From a virus: a stretch of 60,854 nt of DNA. This document shows, piece by piece, positions 25,989 through 46,831 of this stretch (the first letter of the stretch is position 1; the number at the start of each line of letters is the position of its first letter). A model generated the notes under the pieces. It was not told the DNA's origin. It worked only from the letters and a program-made list of their open reading frames with translations, and did no database searches. The stretch lies in IMG/VR virus record IMGVR_UViG_3300047994_000219, positions 1 through 60,854 of that record. The stretch is one strand, 5' to 3'. The position numbers and the translations under genes were made by a program.

Positions 25989-26427
25989 AGTGGTTCTCTA
26001 TATTTTTTATTAAAGCATCGACTATTTTCTTTTGTGCGGGAAGCTCGGCGAAATTGTCGCGGGCATACTTCAATGAGGCAATGTAGCTTTCGATATTGCG
26101 TTCGATTTTGGTGGCCTGTTCTTTCTTTTCTTCAGCCTCCTGCTTGGCGATATCCTTCGTTGGCATTGTATGAAAATGAACGATTGGGCTGTACTTCATC
26201 GATCCAAAAACTTCCATCGGATCAATCTCAATAGGATCGATAACCTCCAAAGCGTTTTTCAGTTTCTCATCCAACTGCGTGAAGATTTTGACAAAACCGC
26301 CTATCGAATCATTGCCCTGCTTTGCAAGTTTAATCGTAAGCTTTTTCCTATTGTGTTCGTTGATAGCGGTAATCAGAAAATTAACCAACAACAAACCGAT
26401 AATGACGTAGTCTAAATTTATAGCCAT
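25972..26427 (-). CDS. Membrane-anchored coiled protein, 151 aa
   Basis: One N-terminal membrane helix (YVIIGLLLVNFLITAI) and a long charged helix with KQEAEEKKEQATKIE. It may hold a sugar enzyme complex or a phage factor at the membrane. I used the ATG at 26427, overlapping the epimerase stop by 10 bases, not the TTG at 26451. Confidence 0.65.
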   Translation of the reverse strand: MAINLDYVIIGLLLVNFLITAINEHNRKKLTIKLAKQGNDSIGGFVKIFTQLDEKLKNALEVIDPIEIDPMEVFGSMKYSPIVHFHTMPTKDIAKQEAEEKKEQATKIERNIESYIASLKYARDNFAELPAQKKIVDALIKNIENHYGRTR

Positions 26428-27506
26428 TGTTCTTTGTTTTCTAATGTCCAAAAGATCATTTTGCGCAGTGAATCCTCAAAGGCAACAGGGTAGGAAAATC
26501 CCGCCTCTTTCAAGTGCGTACCATCCAAAGCGTAGCGGAGATCATGTCCAGGTCGGCTTGAGTGGAAATCTACAAGTTCATAATTGAACGGCAGTTCCTT
26601 CAAACCTTTCGATAAAAGCCATTCATTCGTAATCGCAGCGACTTTTTGCGCCAGTGCAAGGTTGTCCAATTCAATTTCTCCTACTACGTTGTATCGACCT
26701 TTCTTTGCCGATCCGTCTAAATTTTCGCCGTTCTGAAGCACCCACAAAGTGGCAGCGCAGATATTGCGCGCATGCAGGTAGTGTCGTTTGCCCGCCTGAG
26801 TTCTTTCTTTGTTAGAGTGGATAAATAGTTTCTCTCCGAGCAAAACCTTTTTAATGATAAGCGGGATGAACTTTTCAGGATGCTGTCTTTCCCCGAAAAT
26901 GTTCATCGTGTTGGTGATGACGCAGGGGATCTGGTAGGTATTCGCATAGGCGATTACTGCCATCTCGGCTGCTGCTTTGGCTGCTGCGTAAGGATTATTT
27001 GGGTTCAAGCGATCCCATTCTTTGAATCCATCAGCAAATTCTTCTCCCTCTGCCAAAGGCGCGGGTCCGAAGACTTCGTCGGTTGAGAAATAAAGGAATT
27101 TACTATCATCGTACTTTTTAGCAGTTAGACTTTTCAATCCATGATCTCGGGCATAATTGAGAAGGTTGACCGTACCGATACAGTTGTCCATGAAGAACAA
27201 GAGAGGATTTTCGATAGAGCGATCAACATGCGATCCTGCTGCCAAGTGCGCAATGTAATCGAAAGGTCCGTTGAGTTGTTTAATAATCTGATCGTTCAGT
27301 TCCGATCGCAAGTCCCAAAAAAGGAATTTGACGCGATCCGCGCTCACGGCCTTAGTAGTCGCAAGCATGTCAGAAAGACGATTCGGATTTCCTGAAGTAT
27401 CAAGCCGATCGAGAACCGTAATCTCCCAATCGGTATTTTTCAAAATGTGTTCTACTAAATGTGTGCCTACGAATCCGCAAGCGCCTGTAACAAGTATTTT
27501 CTTCAT
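26418..27506 (-). CDS. NAD-dependent epimerase/dehydratase (RmlB-like), 362 aa
   Basis: Short-chain dehydrogenase of the extended type: GACGFVG at residues 8-14 (NAD-binding GxxGxxG), STDEV at 141-145 and Y173-x3-K177 in NPYAAAKAAA. These features match dTDP-glucose 4,6-dehydratase/UDP-sugar epimerase families. It would make or modify a nucleotide sugar for the neighbouring transferases. The exact substrate cannot be read from sequence. Confidence 0.85.
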   Translation of the reverse strand: MKKILVTGACGFVGTHLVEHILKNTDWEITVLDRLDTSGNPNRLSDMLATTKAVSADRVKFLFWDLRSELNDQIIKQLNGPFDYIAHLAAGSHVDRSIENPLLFFMDNCIGTVNLLNYARDHGLKSLTAKKYDDSKFLYFSTDEVFGPAPLAEGEEFADGFKEWDRLNPNNPYAAAKAAAEMAVIAYANTYQIPCVITNTMNIFGERQHPEKFIPLIIKKVLLGEKLFIHSNKERTQAGKRHYLHARNICAATLWVLQNGENLDGSAKKGRYNVVGEIELDNLALAQKVAAITNEWLLSKGLKELPFNYELVDFHSSRPGHDLRYALDGTHLKEAGFSYPVAFEDSLRKMIFWTLENKEQWL

Positions 27507-27511
27507 GGATT

Positions 27512-28183
27512 TTATTTTAAGTCGGCGAAGATATCGCCATGAGTTGTATATTTTCGATCAAAATAAACGTTGTGCGTATCTTTCAGAGCATCCTCAATAA
27601 GCGGGATATCAGCATCACCGTGCCATTCGCCTCTAAAATGCTTTACAAGGTGCATGTAGGGCTTGAATCCCTGCAAGATATCGCCCTCCAATCCTTCGCA
27701 GTCGATCTTCAAAAGGTCAATGCGGGGGAATTTGTATTCATCAATCAGGTCTTTCAGGGAGATCGCTGGGACTGTGATTTCGGAAACTTTTCGCGAACCC
27801 ATTGGTTCGAATAGATCCCATCGGAAGTTACCGTCAACGTGTCCGTTTCCACCCCACGCGCATTGATTGAATGTAACCTCTTTAACGCCTTCGTATTTTT
27901 TCCCAACGATTGCTTTTTCAATATAAGTAAGCCGATCGCCCGTATTGATTTTTGCGTACTTCATCAGGGTAGGTTCTGGTTCGCAAACCAATATCCTAGC
28001 TTTCGGATAAAACACCTCGAACTTAAAACTCGCACAACCTAAATTCGCACCCACGTCAACGATATACTCAACATCTTTATCAACCGCGAAAAGATCCTTG
28101 ATCTTGTATTCGTCATTAGTGATCACCGCTTCTTCATGAGCTCGCGCACACTCTTGCAATTCGCCTTCTGTTGGTTGAATCAT
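27512..28183 (-). CDS. FkbM-type methyltransferase, 223 aa
   Basis: Class I SAM motif VDVGANLGCASFKFEVFYP, acidic motif II VCEPEP, and IDLLKIDCEGLEGDILQG, which is typical of FkbM family enzymes. FkbM enzymes often O-methylate sugars; the neighbouring sugar genes support that. Its start overlaps the next gene by four bases. Confidence 0.85.
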   Translation of the reverse strand: MIQPTEGELQECARAHEEAVITNDEYKIKDLFAVDKDVEYIVDVGANLGCASFKFEVFYPKARILVCEPEPTLMKYAKINTGDRLTYIEKAIVGKKYEGVKEVTFNQCAWGGNGHVDGNFRWDLFEPMGSRKVSEITVPAISLKDLIDEYKFPRIDLLKIDCEGLEGDILQGFKPYMHLVKHFRGEWHGDADIPLIEDALKDTHNVYFDRKYTTHGDIFADLK

Positions 28184-29058
28184 AATTTTTCTGATAATTG
28201 TTTATAGAATTCTAAATGTTTATGTCCTTCGCTCTCAAGATGCTCAATTTGCGTGTGATAAGAATAATGCACAAACAAAGCATCACCGACGAAGAAAATC
28301 GGTCTTTCGAGTTTCGCTGGCATTTCCCAGGACAACTGGGCTTCTTCAAGTTCGCCTATCTCTATTTTATCCCTTCCCCACCAAGCTAAAACGCAAATCG
28401 AAAACCTCTGGTAATTGTCGAAGCTTCTATTCGGCAGGTAGTATGCGGGCAGCGTCTTTTGTTCATATCTCTTTTGAAAGGTATCGTGGATCAAATCAAT
28501 CAGCTTAGAATCGGTGTAGCAAAATTCATCGAGGTAAATCCAATTCGGGTCCTCTGGTTTCTCTGATTGCTTATGAACCGCGCCTGCCTCCAAACCAAGG
28601 GCTCCGATCTCTTGGTGCCAACTGGTTAAAACAGTGCTGTTGATGACATTCGGATAAATTGCAAAAGCATTAGGACAAGCGATTCGGGCGAAAATAATCC
28701 TCTCCAAAGCACCAGGTTCGTACCAAACAATGTCATCGTCAAGGCGAATATAGATAGTGTTCGCATCATGAGTATGCTTCATGAACTTATACGACAACAG
28801 AGCGTTGGTGTTTCTCCAAGCAGGGATAATCTCCTCTTCCAGTTTATGAACAACAACCTTCGGATTTTCGGCAGCCATACTGGCGAGGTAATCGATATCA
28901 CTCGGCTTGATCGTATTCTGCCAAAGTTGCCACTCATCAACTAAACCCTTCTCCATTTCCTTGTAAATGTATTTTTTGAAAATACTCAGGTATTCTTCTC
29001 TACCTGCTGGCGTAACTATTGAGATTCGCCAATCATGTCCTGATTTATCTTTATACAT
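28180..29058 (-). CDS. Glycosyltransferase, DDD motif, 292 aa
   Basis: A GT-A fold pattern: ISIVTPAGREEYLSI start and TIYIRLDDDIVWYEPG with a DDD metal site. An aromatic pocket (WQNTIKPSDIDY) precedes it. Acceptor unknown. A DnaA-box promoter lies upstream. Confidence 0.7.
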   Translation of the reverse strand: MYKDKSGHDWRISIVTPAGREEYLSIFKKYIYKEMEKGLVDEWQLWQNTIKPSDIDYLASMAAENPKVVVHKLEEEIIPAWRNTNALLSYKFMKHTHDANTIYIRLDDDIVWYEPGALERIIFARIACPNAFAIYPNVINSTVLTSWHQEIGALGLEAGAVHKQSEKPEDPNWIYLDEFCYTDSKLIDLIHDTFQKRYEQKTLPAYYLPNRSFDNYQRFSICVLAWWGRDKIEIGELEEAQLSWEMPAKLERPIFFVGDALFVHYSYHTQIEHLESEGHKHLEFYKQLSEKL

Positions 29059-29079
29059 TATTTTTCCGTTAATTAGTTG

Positions 29080-29110
29080 ATAATAGCACAGATAGGGTAA
29101 TAAAGTACAA
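29080..29110 (-). promoter_or_regulatory. Weak promoter-like element
   Basis: TTGTAC (29105-29110) and TATTAT (29080-29085), 19 bases apart; GCTATT gives 17. The spacer contains ACCCTAT like other members of the family. A perfect DnaA box lies eight bases upstream. Confidence 0.4.
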
Positions 29111-29114
29111 GCCC

Positions 29115-29939
29115 CTATTTATCCACACCTATCTGCTTAGTTGCTTTTAATGTCCATTCAGGATTATTATAGGGTCGCGTAAAATTCTCTTGCCCTGGCA
29201 ATCCGCCCCACTTTTTAACATAAAAAGCACGATTGTTTTCGAACAACATACTGACTACAATCGGCTGTCCGTTTTCATTCGCTTCGTTTTGTGTTCGCGA
29301 TCCATAGTGATAGAACATCGCGGTAGGCAAAACAATCGCAGGAACTTCCATCAAATTCATGCGGTAGTGATAATCATTGTCCTCAAAATAGGCGGGGAAG
29401 AAAACTTCATCGAACTCTCCGACCGTCTCCCAACATTCTTTCGATACCATAAAAGCCGAGAAGTGCGGATGCGGGGCTTCATCGACTACTTCTTTATCAT
29501 TCGCGTTGAGCGCGCCGATCATTTGAGGCGTTATATTTTTTTCCTTCAATTCGCCCGCTACATCCATACAACTGACCATTCCTACGGGATTCTTATTAAA
29601 ACGCTCTACAAGTCGCCACAGTGCCTCTGGGTGCAGGATAATATCGTTGTTACAGACCATGATAAAGTCCGCACCATGCTCGATCCCGTATTTGACCCCG
29701 AAGTTAACTGATTTTTGAAAACCCCAACGCTCCTCGTTCCTATGATATAAAAAAAGCTCACTATTCATTTTGGGAGCTTCGATCTTCGTTTCGTCCGTTG
29801 AGGCGTTGTCAATTAAGATAAGGTGAGCATCGATATCGTGGGCTTTGGCGCGCATCATCGCATCCATAGCAGAATTGACGCATTGCTTGGTATATTTATT
29901 CCAAAGGTTGATGCAAGGGATTACAATTTCTACTTTCAT
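29115..29939 (-). CDS. GT2-type glycosyltransferase, 274 aa
   Basis: Classical family 2 signature: VEIVIPCINLW, LILIDNASTDET, a helical spacer, and FIMVCNNDIILHPEAL with the NND/DxD-like site. ECWETVGEFDEVFFPAYFED is the common acceptor-loop motif. It is one of three similar GT2 genes in the island. Confidence 0.85.
   Translation of the reverse strand: MKVEIVIPCINLWNKYTKQCVNSAMDAMMRAKAHDIDAHLILIDNASTDETKIEAPKMNSELFLYHRNEERWGFQKSVNFGVKYGIEHGADFIMVCNNDIILHPEALWRLVERFNKNPVGMVSCMDVAGELKEKNITPQMIGALNANDKEVVDEAPHPHFSAFMVSKECWETVGEFDEVFFPAYFEDNDYHYRMNLMEVPAIVLPTAMFYHYGSRTQNEANENGQPIVVSMLFENNRAFYVKKWGGLPGQENFTRPYNNPEWTLKATKQIGVDK
29119..29127. promoter_or_regulatory. DnaA box next to a promoter (copy 2)
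   Basis: TTATCCACA on the plus strand, inside the end of the GT2 gene, eight bases from the -35-like TTGTAC. Confidence 0.55.
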
Positions 29940-44187: not shown

Positions 44188-45030
44188 CTATCTGTTCCTC
44201 ATCCAAAATCGCCATTTTTCAACCTGTTCTTGACTGGTAAATCTAATCGCAAGCTCTGATCTTGGATGATGATTTTTTTTGATTTTGTAACGAAATAAAC
44301 CTGGAAACCTTTTCATCAAAAAATCACAATCCTTCAACTTCTGCGGAAGCCTCTTTTCGTATGTTCCTGCCCCTCCCTTTGTATAATGTTTCTTAATTGC
44401 GACTGCGTAATTATTTATGAGAACTCTTCCGAATTTTTCAAGGTTTTGCGCCGTCCAAAGATAATCATCAGCCGACATAGTAGTGCCGTTTCTCAAATCG
44501 TATTTCAGATCCGTTTTCTTAATAAGCTGTGTCTTTCCTATAACGTAACCAACCTCCCGCCATTTCTTGTTCCTAAAAAAGAAGTTCACATTCGAAGCAA
44601 AACCGCAGAGATTCGCTTTCCTCTTTTCTGCTTCCGTAATCGTTTCATCAACAATATCCATAAAACGATTAACCGAAACCCGATTTTCAAAAATATCTTT
44701 GTATTTTTCTGGGTTTTCCTTTACGGGAAGATTTTCAGATTTATAGAAACCTTCTTTTACTGCTTCGAAATACTGGATATTGTCATCAAGCGTCATGTAC
44801 CATTCTCCTTTCTCTACCAGATTTTCCAACAAAAAATTCCGCACCCCGAGCATCCCGAAAGGCAGATTAGAAACGATGATATTTTCTTCTTTTATAGTAG
44901 GGTTTTTAAGATAGAGAGCTTTTTGCTCTTCGTTATGAAGAATGATTTTATAAGGGATATTTTGAGCGTCTAAAAGAGTATGGGTTGAGATAGAATCACT
45001 CCTATTATAGCTGTTGATAAATATCTTCAT
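44188..45030 (-). CDS. TET-associated glycosyltransferase (TAGT-like), 280 aa
   Basis: FINSYNRSDSISTHTLLDAQ start, LGVRNFLLENLVEKGEWYM and the DD metal site of LDDNIQYF (Asp82-83) match TAGT-type GT-A enzymes that occur next to TET/JBP oxygenases. It likely moves a sugar onto the hydroxymethyl base made by the neighbouring TET enzyme. It overlaps that gene by four bases. Confidence 0.75.
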   Translation of the reverse strand: MKIFINSYNRSDSISTHTLLDAQNIPYKIILHNEEQKALYLKNPTIKEENIIVSNLPFGMLGVRNFLLENLVEKGEWYMTLDDNIQYFEAVKEGFYKSENLPVKENPEKYKDIFENRVSVNRFMDIVDETITEAEKRKANLCGFASNVNFFFRNKKWREVGYVIGKTQLIKKTDLKYDLRNGTTMSADDYLWTAQNLEKFGRVLINNYAVAIKKHYTKGGAGTYEKRLPQKLKDCDFLMKRFPGLFRYKIKKNHHPRSELAIRFTSQEQVEKWRFWMRNR

Positions 45031-45920
45031 TGTTTCCCGCGCCTCGGAAGCATGGAATTTATGTTGTGTTCTTTTCGCTTCTTATCCTCTTCGGTCATAG
45101 GTTCATTCATGCGGGCGCGCTCGCGCTCCGTCCTGCGTTTTTTGATCCGCGCCAATTCATCATCAATCTCCAAACACTGCCACATCCTTTTGAGTGAGTA
45201 ATAGACAATCGAGAAACGATATGATTTTTCACTAGCAAAACGGATTGGCGTAACTCCATGCGCGATCCCTTGTCCGTCAAAAAGGAATATCGAATCGTTT
45301 GGAAGCTTGAATCCAACACCATATTCAGGAACCGAAAGGTATCCACCCTCAACGCCCCCCCCCTTGAAAACAATCATACAAGAATAAACATCATTGAAAT
45401 TTCCCGAATCAAAGTGGTACTTCAAAGGATTGTTTTTGTTAATGATCCCGCTAGTGAAAACACTTTCCCCATCCATTCGATAGAATTTTTTGATCTTCTC
45501 GTCAGTAAGCGATCTATGCTTTTCGTAAGTTTTTGGATCGTACTGCCGATAGTGTTCTTCGAGTTTTTTGGCGAGCCCCGCAACCAGCGCATGCTTGCTT
45601 GGTGCTTCGAAGGCCAGTGAAGAAGTGGAGCAGAAATCAGCCCTCATTTCATTGCGCGGACGGTAGCCGAATATGCGGGATCGGGAAATCAAACCGCGCG
45701 AGCGCGATCCTTCGTGGTACTTTATTTCCTTGAGCGCTTCGACAACCTCATCTGAATTAAAATTCTCAAGTTGATCGTAGATAATTTTCACAACCCCTTC
45801 GTCCTCGTCAATAAGGATCGTTGGTTCATCGATAAGTATATCGTAATCCGTTTCAAGCGCCGTCCGCTTGATATACTCATTCATATCTATTTTTCGCCTT
45901 TTGAGAACTAAGGTCTTCAT
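45027..45920 (-). CDS. TET/JBP-family Fe(II)/2OG dioxygenase, 297 aa
   Basis: N-terminal SRSRIFGYRPRNEMRADFCS (near 79-98) is the TET/JBP DNA-binding signature. The core has the HxD iron site YHFDSGN (His169, Asp171), distal GQGIAHG (His221) and SYRFSIVYY (Arg235, 2OG-binding). It oxidises 5-methylcytosine or thymine in DNA. No DNA methyltransferase is recognisable in the genome, so the methyl group may come from the host or from thymine itself. ATGA-type overlaps with both neighbours. Confidence 0.85.
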   Translation of the reverse strand: MKTLVLKRRKIDMNEYIKRTALETDYDILIDEPTILIDEDEGVVKIIYDQLENFNSDEVVEALKEIKYHEGSRSRGLISRSRIFGYRPRNEMRADFCSTSSLAFEAPSKHALVAGLAKKLEEHYRQYDPKTYEKHRSLTDEKIKKFYRMDGESVFTSGIINKNNPLKYHFDSGNFNDVYSCMIVFKGGGVEGGYLSVPEYGVGFKLPNDSIFLFDGQGIAHGVTPIRFASEKSYRFSIVYYSLKRMWQCLEIDDELARIKKRRTERERARMNEPMTEEDKKRKEHNINSMLPRRGKQ

Positions 45921-46588
45921 TTGTTTTTCTCGTAAAATTCAACAGCTCTCATTACCGCCTCTGTATGATTATCAACCCCGAAATCTACCATCAAAGCATC
46001 AAAGCGCTTCACCGTTTCATCGAATTGGTCCGCCTTGAAAAAGAGAACAATTTGCTTGATATTGCCTTCTAAATAAGAGTCCATCGATTTCGAAAGCATT
46101 TCATCATCCATTTTAACCTCGGGTGCTTTCGGCAACATATCCAGGTCTTGTTTGGTGAAACCATAGTCCAACAAGTTATCAATATCGAACTGGTTCGCCA
46201 GAATATCATAATCCCACATACCCGTTACTTTGTTGGCTTGGATATTAGCACGCTCCGCCTTTTCTTCATCCCAGTCAACAATACGAAGCGAGAAAACCTG
46301 CTCCGTTTCCTGCCCTGCGTCCTTGATAATAGAACCAAGTGCCACTGTACCGTCTTTTTGAGGCTCTGGGAAGGTTGTAATAACCTTAATCGTATAACGA
46401 TCCTGCTCCTGTAAGAAGGATTTCATACGCTGGTTTCCTCCAATAATCTCGTTTGTGCGCCGATTGACGACAACCCCTCCAAGATCTCCCAAGGAAGCAA
46501 GCGAATCACCGAGCCGATCGAACCTATCGGAACTGATCTGGCGCGGGTTTTTATGATACTCCTTGAAATCTGATAGTTTGATATCCAT
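45917..46588 (-). CDS. ParB-like nuclease-domain protein, 223 aa
   Basis: LSDFKEYHKNPRQISSDRF and VVVNRRTNEIIGGNQRMK form the ParB/Srx-like domain; the C-terminus contains DILANQFDIDNLLDYGF, as in phage ParB proteins near DNA-modification genes. It is paired with TET in published phage cassettes. Substrate unknown. Confidence 0.85.
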   Translation of the reverse strand: MDIKLSDFKEYHKNPRQISSDRFDRLGDSLASLGDLGGVVVNRRTNEIIGGNQRMKSFLQEQDRYTIKVITTFPEPQKDGTVALGSIIKDAGQETEQVFSLRIVDWDEEKAERANIQANKVTGMWDYDILANQFDIDNLLDYGFTKQDLDMLPKAPEVKMDDEMLSKSMDSYLEGNIKQIVLFFKADQFDETVKRFDALMVDFGVDNHTEAVMRAVEFYEKNK

Positions 46589-46594
46589 AGTTTT

Positions 46595-46831
46595 TTAACA
46601 AATCGCTTCTTTCAAAGCTTTTGTCGGTCTAAATTTAATTTTCCAATAAGAAGGGATCATCACAATTTCCCCGTTCTTCGGGTTGCGCCCGCGCCGAGAA
46701 GGAATTTCCCTAGTTTCGAATATGCCAAGGCCAACGATCTTTACCTTACCGTACTGCATCAATCCCTTTCGAACCTCCAAGCGAACTTCGCGGGGAAGCT
46801 TTACAATTTTCTTCTGTTTTTTATTTGCCAT
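46595..46831 (-). CDS. HU/IHF-like DNA-binding protein, short, 78 aa
   Basis: Shows the HU beta-arm and second half: GLGIFETREIPSRRGRNPKN ... PSYWKIKFRPTKALKEAI. It lacks part of the N-terminal helix compared with the normal 90 residues. It could bend DNA for replication or packaging. Confidence 0.8.
   Translation of the reverse strand: MANKKQKKIVKLPREVRLEVRKGLMQYGKVKIVGLGIFETREIPSRRGRNPKNGEIVMIPSYWKIKFRPTKALKEAIC

Follow-up and report, generated by a model that had tools for sequence, protein, structure and literature searches.

The locus studied here encodes a TET/JBP-type oxygenase, a glycosyltransferase and a ParB-like protein in a phage genome in which no cytosine-C5 methyltransferase (C5-MTase) could be identified. 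This raises the question which pyrimidine in the phage DNA is oxidized and glycosylated, and where its methyl group comes from.

A three-gene cassette in a closed phage genome

The window, i.e., the whole stretch of DNA that was analyzed, consists of the 60,854 bases of IMG/VR record IMGVR_UViG_3300047994_000219. An exact direct terminal repeat of 127 bases was found at its ends, and therefore this environmental phage genome is considered closed, as had been stated in an earlier reading made from the sequence only. As 127 is a common maximum k-mer of assemblers, the repeat possibly reflects a circular contig and not a biological end. The genes for a ParB-like protein, a TET/JBP oxygenase and a TAGT-like (TET-associated) glycosyltransferase, which the same sequence-only reading had proposed as a DNA hypermodification cassette, could all be confirmed. 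They are located in this order on the minus strand (Table 1) and are coupled by 4-base overlaps between the ParB stop and the TET start (45917-45920) and between the TET stop and the TAGT start (45027-45030). The HU/IHF-type gene is a neighbor and at most a putative member of the cassette, and phmmer synteny showed that its position is conserved in two related loci, L011 and L012. With respect to the host, terminase matches were weak and scattered, and a related TET was present in only three actinobacterial genome contigs.

Table 1. Genes of the cassette and its upstream neighbor, with positions in the window.
Feature	Coordinates	Strand	Basis of assignment
ParB-like protein, 223 aa	45917..46588	-	PHROG ParB, E 1.9e-20; family profile vs Noc/ParB/Spo0J
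TET/JBP-family 2OG-Fe(II) DNA oxygenase (predicted), 297 aa	45027..45920	-	PF12851, E 6.6e-11; AlphaFold2 model
TAGT-like glycosyltransferase, GT-A fold (model), 280 aa	44188..45030	-	PF20691 below cut-off; PHROG_842, E 5e-9
HU/IHF-type DNA-binding protein	46595..46831	-	PF00216, E 8.6e-17; directly upstream of ParB

The oxygenase scored 42.1 bits against Tet_JBP (PF12851), above the curated cut-off of 34.9. The HxD...H...R and SRSRIFGYRPR signatures on which its earlier assignment was based were confirmed: the Fe(II)/2OG residues H169xD171, H221, and R235 align with those of TET2 and NgTET1 and were invariant in all 56 aligned TETs, and the SRSRIFGYRPR stretch comprises residues 79-89. When a profile was built from the oxygenase and 55 relatives, it matched the solved structures of TET2, NgTET1 and CMD1, and more weakly that of CcTet. 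The AlphaFold2 model (mean pLDDT 93) resulted in VIA Z scores of 21.1 for TET2, 19.8 for CMD1, 19.2 for NgTET1 and 17.4 for CcTet, compared with at most 15.4 for AlkB/FTO, the best non-TET family. Both the profile search and the model place the protein within the TET/JBP family, and its predicted activity is the oxidation of a DNA pyrimidine at the 5-methyl group. An identity as NreA was rejected, as the E-value was 0.005 at best, far under NreA's own cut-off.

The ParB-like protein alone had no Pfam match. Besides the PHROG match, a profile of its relatives matched the N-terminal domains of the Noc, ParB and Spo0J structures (E 1e-11), which confirmed the similarity to the ParB N-domain. The protein contains an N-terminal ParB/Srx-type domain with NPR and GGNQR motifs and a C-terminal IKQIVLFF segment. 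In 85 of 90 related loci a ParB-like gene was located within 5-6 kb of TET on the same strand, and therefore ParB is regarded as part of the system.

The glycosyltransferase is TAGT-like, but not a clean member of PF20691, against which it scored 22 bits (E 1.7e-4; cut-off 27.5) over residues 1-92 only. PHROG_842 (glucosyltransferase) covered the whole protein, and the DD motif was found at TLDDN. Its structural model, built from seven sequences (pLDDT 68), shows a GT-A fold, with Z scores of 11-13 for mannosylglycerate synthase and GT2 processive synthases. Homologs (phmmer E 9e-43 to 7e-39) were identified directly or shortly downstream of TET in L064, L040, L031, L082, and L045. The earlier assignment as a TAGT thus stands on PHROG_842, on the TET-linked homologs and on the model fold. 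No match to the window TAGT was obtained in the phage collection, and its profile gave only chance hits among PDB sequences.

Other carbohydrate genes are present in the genome at about 26.4-30 kb, and the TAGT could act on virion or host glycans instead of DNA, with its placement behind TET being due to chance. This is very improbable, since its gene overlaps TET by 4 bases, TAGT-type glycosyltransferases (homologous and others) are found near TET in 30 of the 90 loci, and the Pfam TAGT family was named after its association with TET.

The sugar genes at 26418-29939 encode a GDP-mannose-dehydratase/epimerase-type enzyme (47-49% identical to cyanophage nucleotide-sugar epimerases), an FkbM methyltransferase and a GT2 glycosyltransferase, and an RGP-type match is also present in the 20.6-39.4 kb set of the window. 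It is possible that these genes supply the sugar donor or serve virion or host glycan work.

C5-methyltransferase search and exchange of tailoring enzymes

PF00145 was searched in all six frames of the window, reading across stop codons, and gave no C5-MTase candidate. A compact phage C5-MTase query derived from L014/L017 did not give one either, and a six-frame search for the PPC motif yielded no catalytic motif of the PPCQ type in any coding frame. Among the Pfam matches of all window ORFs of at least 60 aa, no DNA methyltransferase family was identified, the methyltransferases being of small-molecule types only (Methyltransf_11/23, FkbM), and the N6/N4 family PF01555 was absent from the window. 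The reported lack of a C5-MTase in this closed genome was therefore confirmed, but the accompanying expectation that such gene sets usually carry one proved wrong for this branch. Only eight of the 89 records with related TETs, many of which are fragments while the named actinophage genomes are complete, have a C5-MTase: seven exceed the PF00145 cut-off and L014 has a compact one. Besides Melnitz-2, this corresponds to only 7 of 88 records. The expectation fits the cytosine branch, with the Methylophilales phage Melnitz-2, in which an HhaI-type MTase adjoins TET. For the TET branch of the window, genomes without a C5-MTase are the rule, and its absence here is not anomalous.

Compact C5-MTases (L095:819-1499 and L094:1004-1846) contain FCGAGG or similar, SPPCQ, ENV, and RHRLFE motifs and score just 17.5 and 22.7 bits with PF00145, so that searches with a cut-off can overlook them. 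In L064 (L096:1014-3453), a C5-MTase, a double ParB, a ParB, TET, and TAGT are arranged in a row, which offers a natural comparison for a cytosine version of the system.

The loci compared comprised 80 further viral loci from an alignment scan and ten from named phages. Retrieval of the 80 loci relied on one conserved motif, and the set thus represents this branch rather than phage TETs in general. When viral contigs were scanned with the window TET or TAGT as single sequences, no relatives were obtained; the alignment query alone succeeded. Near ParB-TET, a glycosyltransferase without a kinase or an amino-acid:DNA transferase (ADDT) was observed in 26 of the 90 loci, and the P-loop kinase (PF18751) and/or ADDT (PF18724) without a glycosyltransferase in 33. 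Both types were present in four loci and neither in 27, in some cases owing to contig ends. Neither the 5hmU kinase PF18751 nor ADDT PF18724 was found in the window, although close relatives have them.

When 56 TETs were placed in a maximum-likelihood tree, at least nine switches between the states glycosyltransferase and kinase/ADDT were counted. The window TET groups with that of the syntenic phage L011 (68% identity; support 100/97), which has a different TAGT that scores above the PF20691 cut-off. This glycosyltransferase-bearing pair is sister to L012 (TET 56% identical), where TET is followed by ADDT, and sits inside a set of ten members, six of which have kinase/ADDT. These patterns indicate that a constant ParB-TET pair is combined with exchangeable tailoring enzymes.

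Substrate of the oxygenase

The genes, their coupling, their families, the conserved residues, the lack of a C5-MTase and the swapping of tailoring enzymes behind ParB-TET were computed; what follows on the substrate of TET, the sugar that is transferred, the function of ParB and the purpose of the cassette is our inference. The cassette would be a post-replicative DNA hypermodification operon, in which the TET/JBP oxygenase would hydroxylate a pyrimidine 5-methyl group already present in the phage DNA, most likely that of thymine, to 5-hydroxymethyluracil (5hmU). The TAGT would then move a sugar from a nucleotide-sugar donor onto the hydroxymethyl group, so that a glycosyl-5hmU similar to base J would result. 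For the ParB-like protein, binding to DNA is probable; it would direct or confine the oxygenase to particular sites, and the modified DNA would be masked from nucleases or marked for packaging. Hydroxylation of thymine in DNA, addition of a sugar by TAGT and guidance by ParB are together considered reasonably probable.

The sequence-only reading had left host-made 5-methylcytosine (5mC) and thymine side by side as possible substrates. Their equal standing is not kept, as the comparative evidence favors thymine, without proving it. A thymidylate-synthase-type dUMP hydroxymethylase (PF00303) was absent from all 26 records tested, the window among them, and therefore the hydroxymethyl base must come from an enzyme acting on DNA. 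The alternation of glycosyltransferase and kinase/ADDT behind ParB-TET requires a single TET product that both pathways can use. As thymidine hypermodification via 5hmdU is known to employ kinase and ADDT (Lee et al., cited in PMC11955845), 5hmU formed from thymine is the simplest shared product of TET. The homologous operon of Tonitrus was also interpreted as a thymidine system (PMC11955845), although for the actinophage operons thymine is itself a guess that was published on the basis of sequence.

Some loci argue against thymine. In L064, which has a TAGT homolog (31% identical), a C5-MTase is located just upstream of a ParB-ParB-TET-TAGT run, which makes it probable that cytosine can serve as a substrate of this enzyme set. 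L014 has its compact C5-MTase ~3 kb upstream of TET, and in Melnitz-2 a weak kinase-like gene is found near the C5-MTase-linked TET, so that a kinase alone is no proof of thymine. These three cases indicate that the enzyme set is not tied to thymine in every phage.

Active-site residues were also considered. The position aligned with TET2 H1904 and NgTET1 H297 is Leu243 in the window TET. Residue 174 is Asn in 53 of the 56 TETs, as at the equivalent position of TET2, and Asp in three outliers, among them a C5-MTase-linked TET. TET2 N1387/H1904 and NgTET1 D234/H297 are taken by us to have contact roles. The two positions were demoted as a specificity test, since the C5-MTase-linked L064 also has Asn174 and lacks the His; Leu243 in place of the TET2/NgTET1 His, together with Asn174, is suggestive only as an argument for thymine.

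Alternatively, a host C5-MTase could methylate the phage DNA after replication, after which the phage TET would form 5hmC and TAGT would glycosylate it. To our knowledge, all phage TETs with published activity, that is in the 2021 work of Burke et al., act on 5mC, and C5-MTase-linked TET homologs exist. Phage cytosine TET activity is summarized in PMC12730594. CCGG is strongly avoided in the window (2 seen, 124 expected), as are GGCC (41/113) and CTAG (26/86), and the host lineage probably restricts at CCGG, where the partner methylase of such a restriction-modification system is usually a 5mC enzyme. However, the same avoidance leaves almost no CCGG for methylation, and its persistence means that modification gives no relief at CCGG, which argues weakly against dense cytosine modification. 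Moreover, the module recurs in many divergent phages without a C5-MTase, each of which would depend on its host. KayaCho has no C5-MTase, and for its host species cytosine methylation is not known: recent methods revealed none, although the source paper urges re-examination. A host origin of the methyl group is therefore considered unlikely.

L011 shows no loss of CCGG (48 seen, 59 expected). Strong avoidance of CCGG and of one or more other GC palindromes was observed in L012, L025, L032, and L041.

It was also considered that TET oxidizes both T and 5mC, or produces only low-level 5-hydroxymethyl bases, so that the product would be a sparse or mixed site-specific mark, e.g., at ParB-defined packaging or origin sites, and not a genome-wide protection. 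The ParB-like partners suggest site selection, the cassette is located near the terminase gene in several relatives, and restriction pressure persists at CCGG, GGCC, and CTAG, which the window still avoids. Yet a dedicated glycosyltransferase that is kept in many relatives implies a defined end product, and such a mark is regarded as quite improbable.

Relation to known DNA modification systems

Associations of TET, TAGT, and ParB in phages were reportedly predicted by Iyer et al. in 2013, and cytosine hypermodification by a phage C5-MTase, TET and glycosyltransferase was reportedly shown by Burke et al. in PNAS in 2021. Already known are therefore the predicted TET-TAGT-ParB sets, the cytosine TET systems and the published thymidine reading of a ParB-TET-ADDT-kinase operon. 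New are the evidence that phages of this branch normally lack a C5-MTase and the swap between sugar and kinase/ADDT tailoring behind one TET. The window shares with the system of Burke et al. a phage TET and a glycosyltransferase in one cluster and a predicted pathway in which a DNA pyrimidine is oxidized and glycosylated. It differs by the lack of a C5-MTase, by the ParB-like partner and by a TET branch (Asn174, Leu243) apart from Melnitz-2.

The isolated actinophages Lilmac1015, KayaCho, and Tonitrus share the ParB-TET core. Like the window, Tonitrus (Rhodococcus), CaiB (Gordonia) and KayaCho (Mycobacterium) combine this core with the absence of a C5-MTase, and the window TET is 33-36% identical to those of CaiB and Tonitrus. 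Their operons, however, tailor by a P-loop kinase (plus ADDT in Tonitrus and CaiB), whereas the window does so by a glycosyltransferase. The Arthrobacter phage Lilmac1015, with ParB-TET-TAGT-PIG-L, has the same three-enzyme logic, TAGT directly after TET and no C5-MTase; compared with the window it has an extra GlcNAc-type deacetylase, a TAGT of another subfamily and a TET that is 31% identical.

In the kinetoplastid base J pathway (JBP1/JBP2 and JGT), a sugar transferase likewise acts after a TET/JBP oxygenase, and thymine is also the substrate proposed for the window. The window has no J-binding domain, and its targeting partner ParB is unrelated. We tentatively propose that the phage may make base J or a close analog by ParB-guided thymine hydroxylation in DNA and TAGT glycosylation. 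In that case, and with the same reserve, a thymine hydroxylase acting on DNA might take the place of the C5-MTase in cytosine systems and of the dUMP hydroxymethylase in classical thymine ones. Such a base-J-like nucleoside would, if confirmed, be a notable finding for a phage. As far as we know, DNA thymine hydroxylase activity has so far been established chiefly in the eukaryotic JBP branch. Phages would hold many such enzymes if thymine is the substrate of the TETs in this branch, and base J chemistry would then have a visible phage counterpart.

From a ParB-TET pair with swappable partners (glycosyltransferase, kinase with ADDT, deacetylase or FkbM-type methyltransferase), a range of DNA bases would be expected. 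An FkbM-type methyltransferase adjoins TET instead of a glycosyltransferase at L013:3884-4588, L010:6401-7099, and L007:5009-5710, and might O-methylate the hydroxymethyl base to a 5-methoxymethyl-pyrimidine, of which we know of no description as a DNA product. PIG-L genes, which are of the GlcNAc deacetylase type, follow TET or TET-TAGT in several loci (L005:7400-7990, L019:11763-12362, L038, L069, and L072) and suggest that an amino sugar is placed on DNA and then deacetylated.

Several annotations in these loci deviate from the families found here. L003:1802-2377 (NC_022061 gene 3), annotated as 'terminase small subunit', matches the P-loop kinase PF18751 with 367 bits, as do records of the related cluster, and TET genes next to such kinases are widely mis-named 'queuine tRNA-ribosyltransferase' or 'DpdA-like'.
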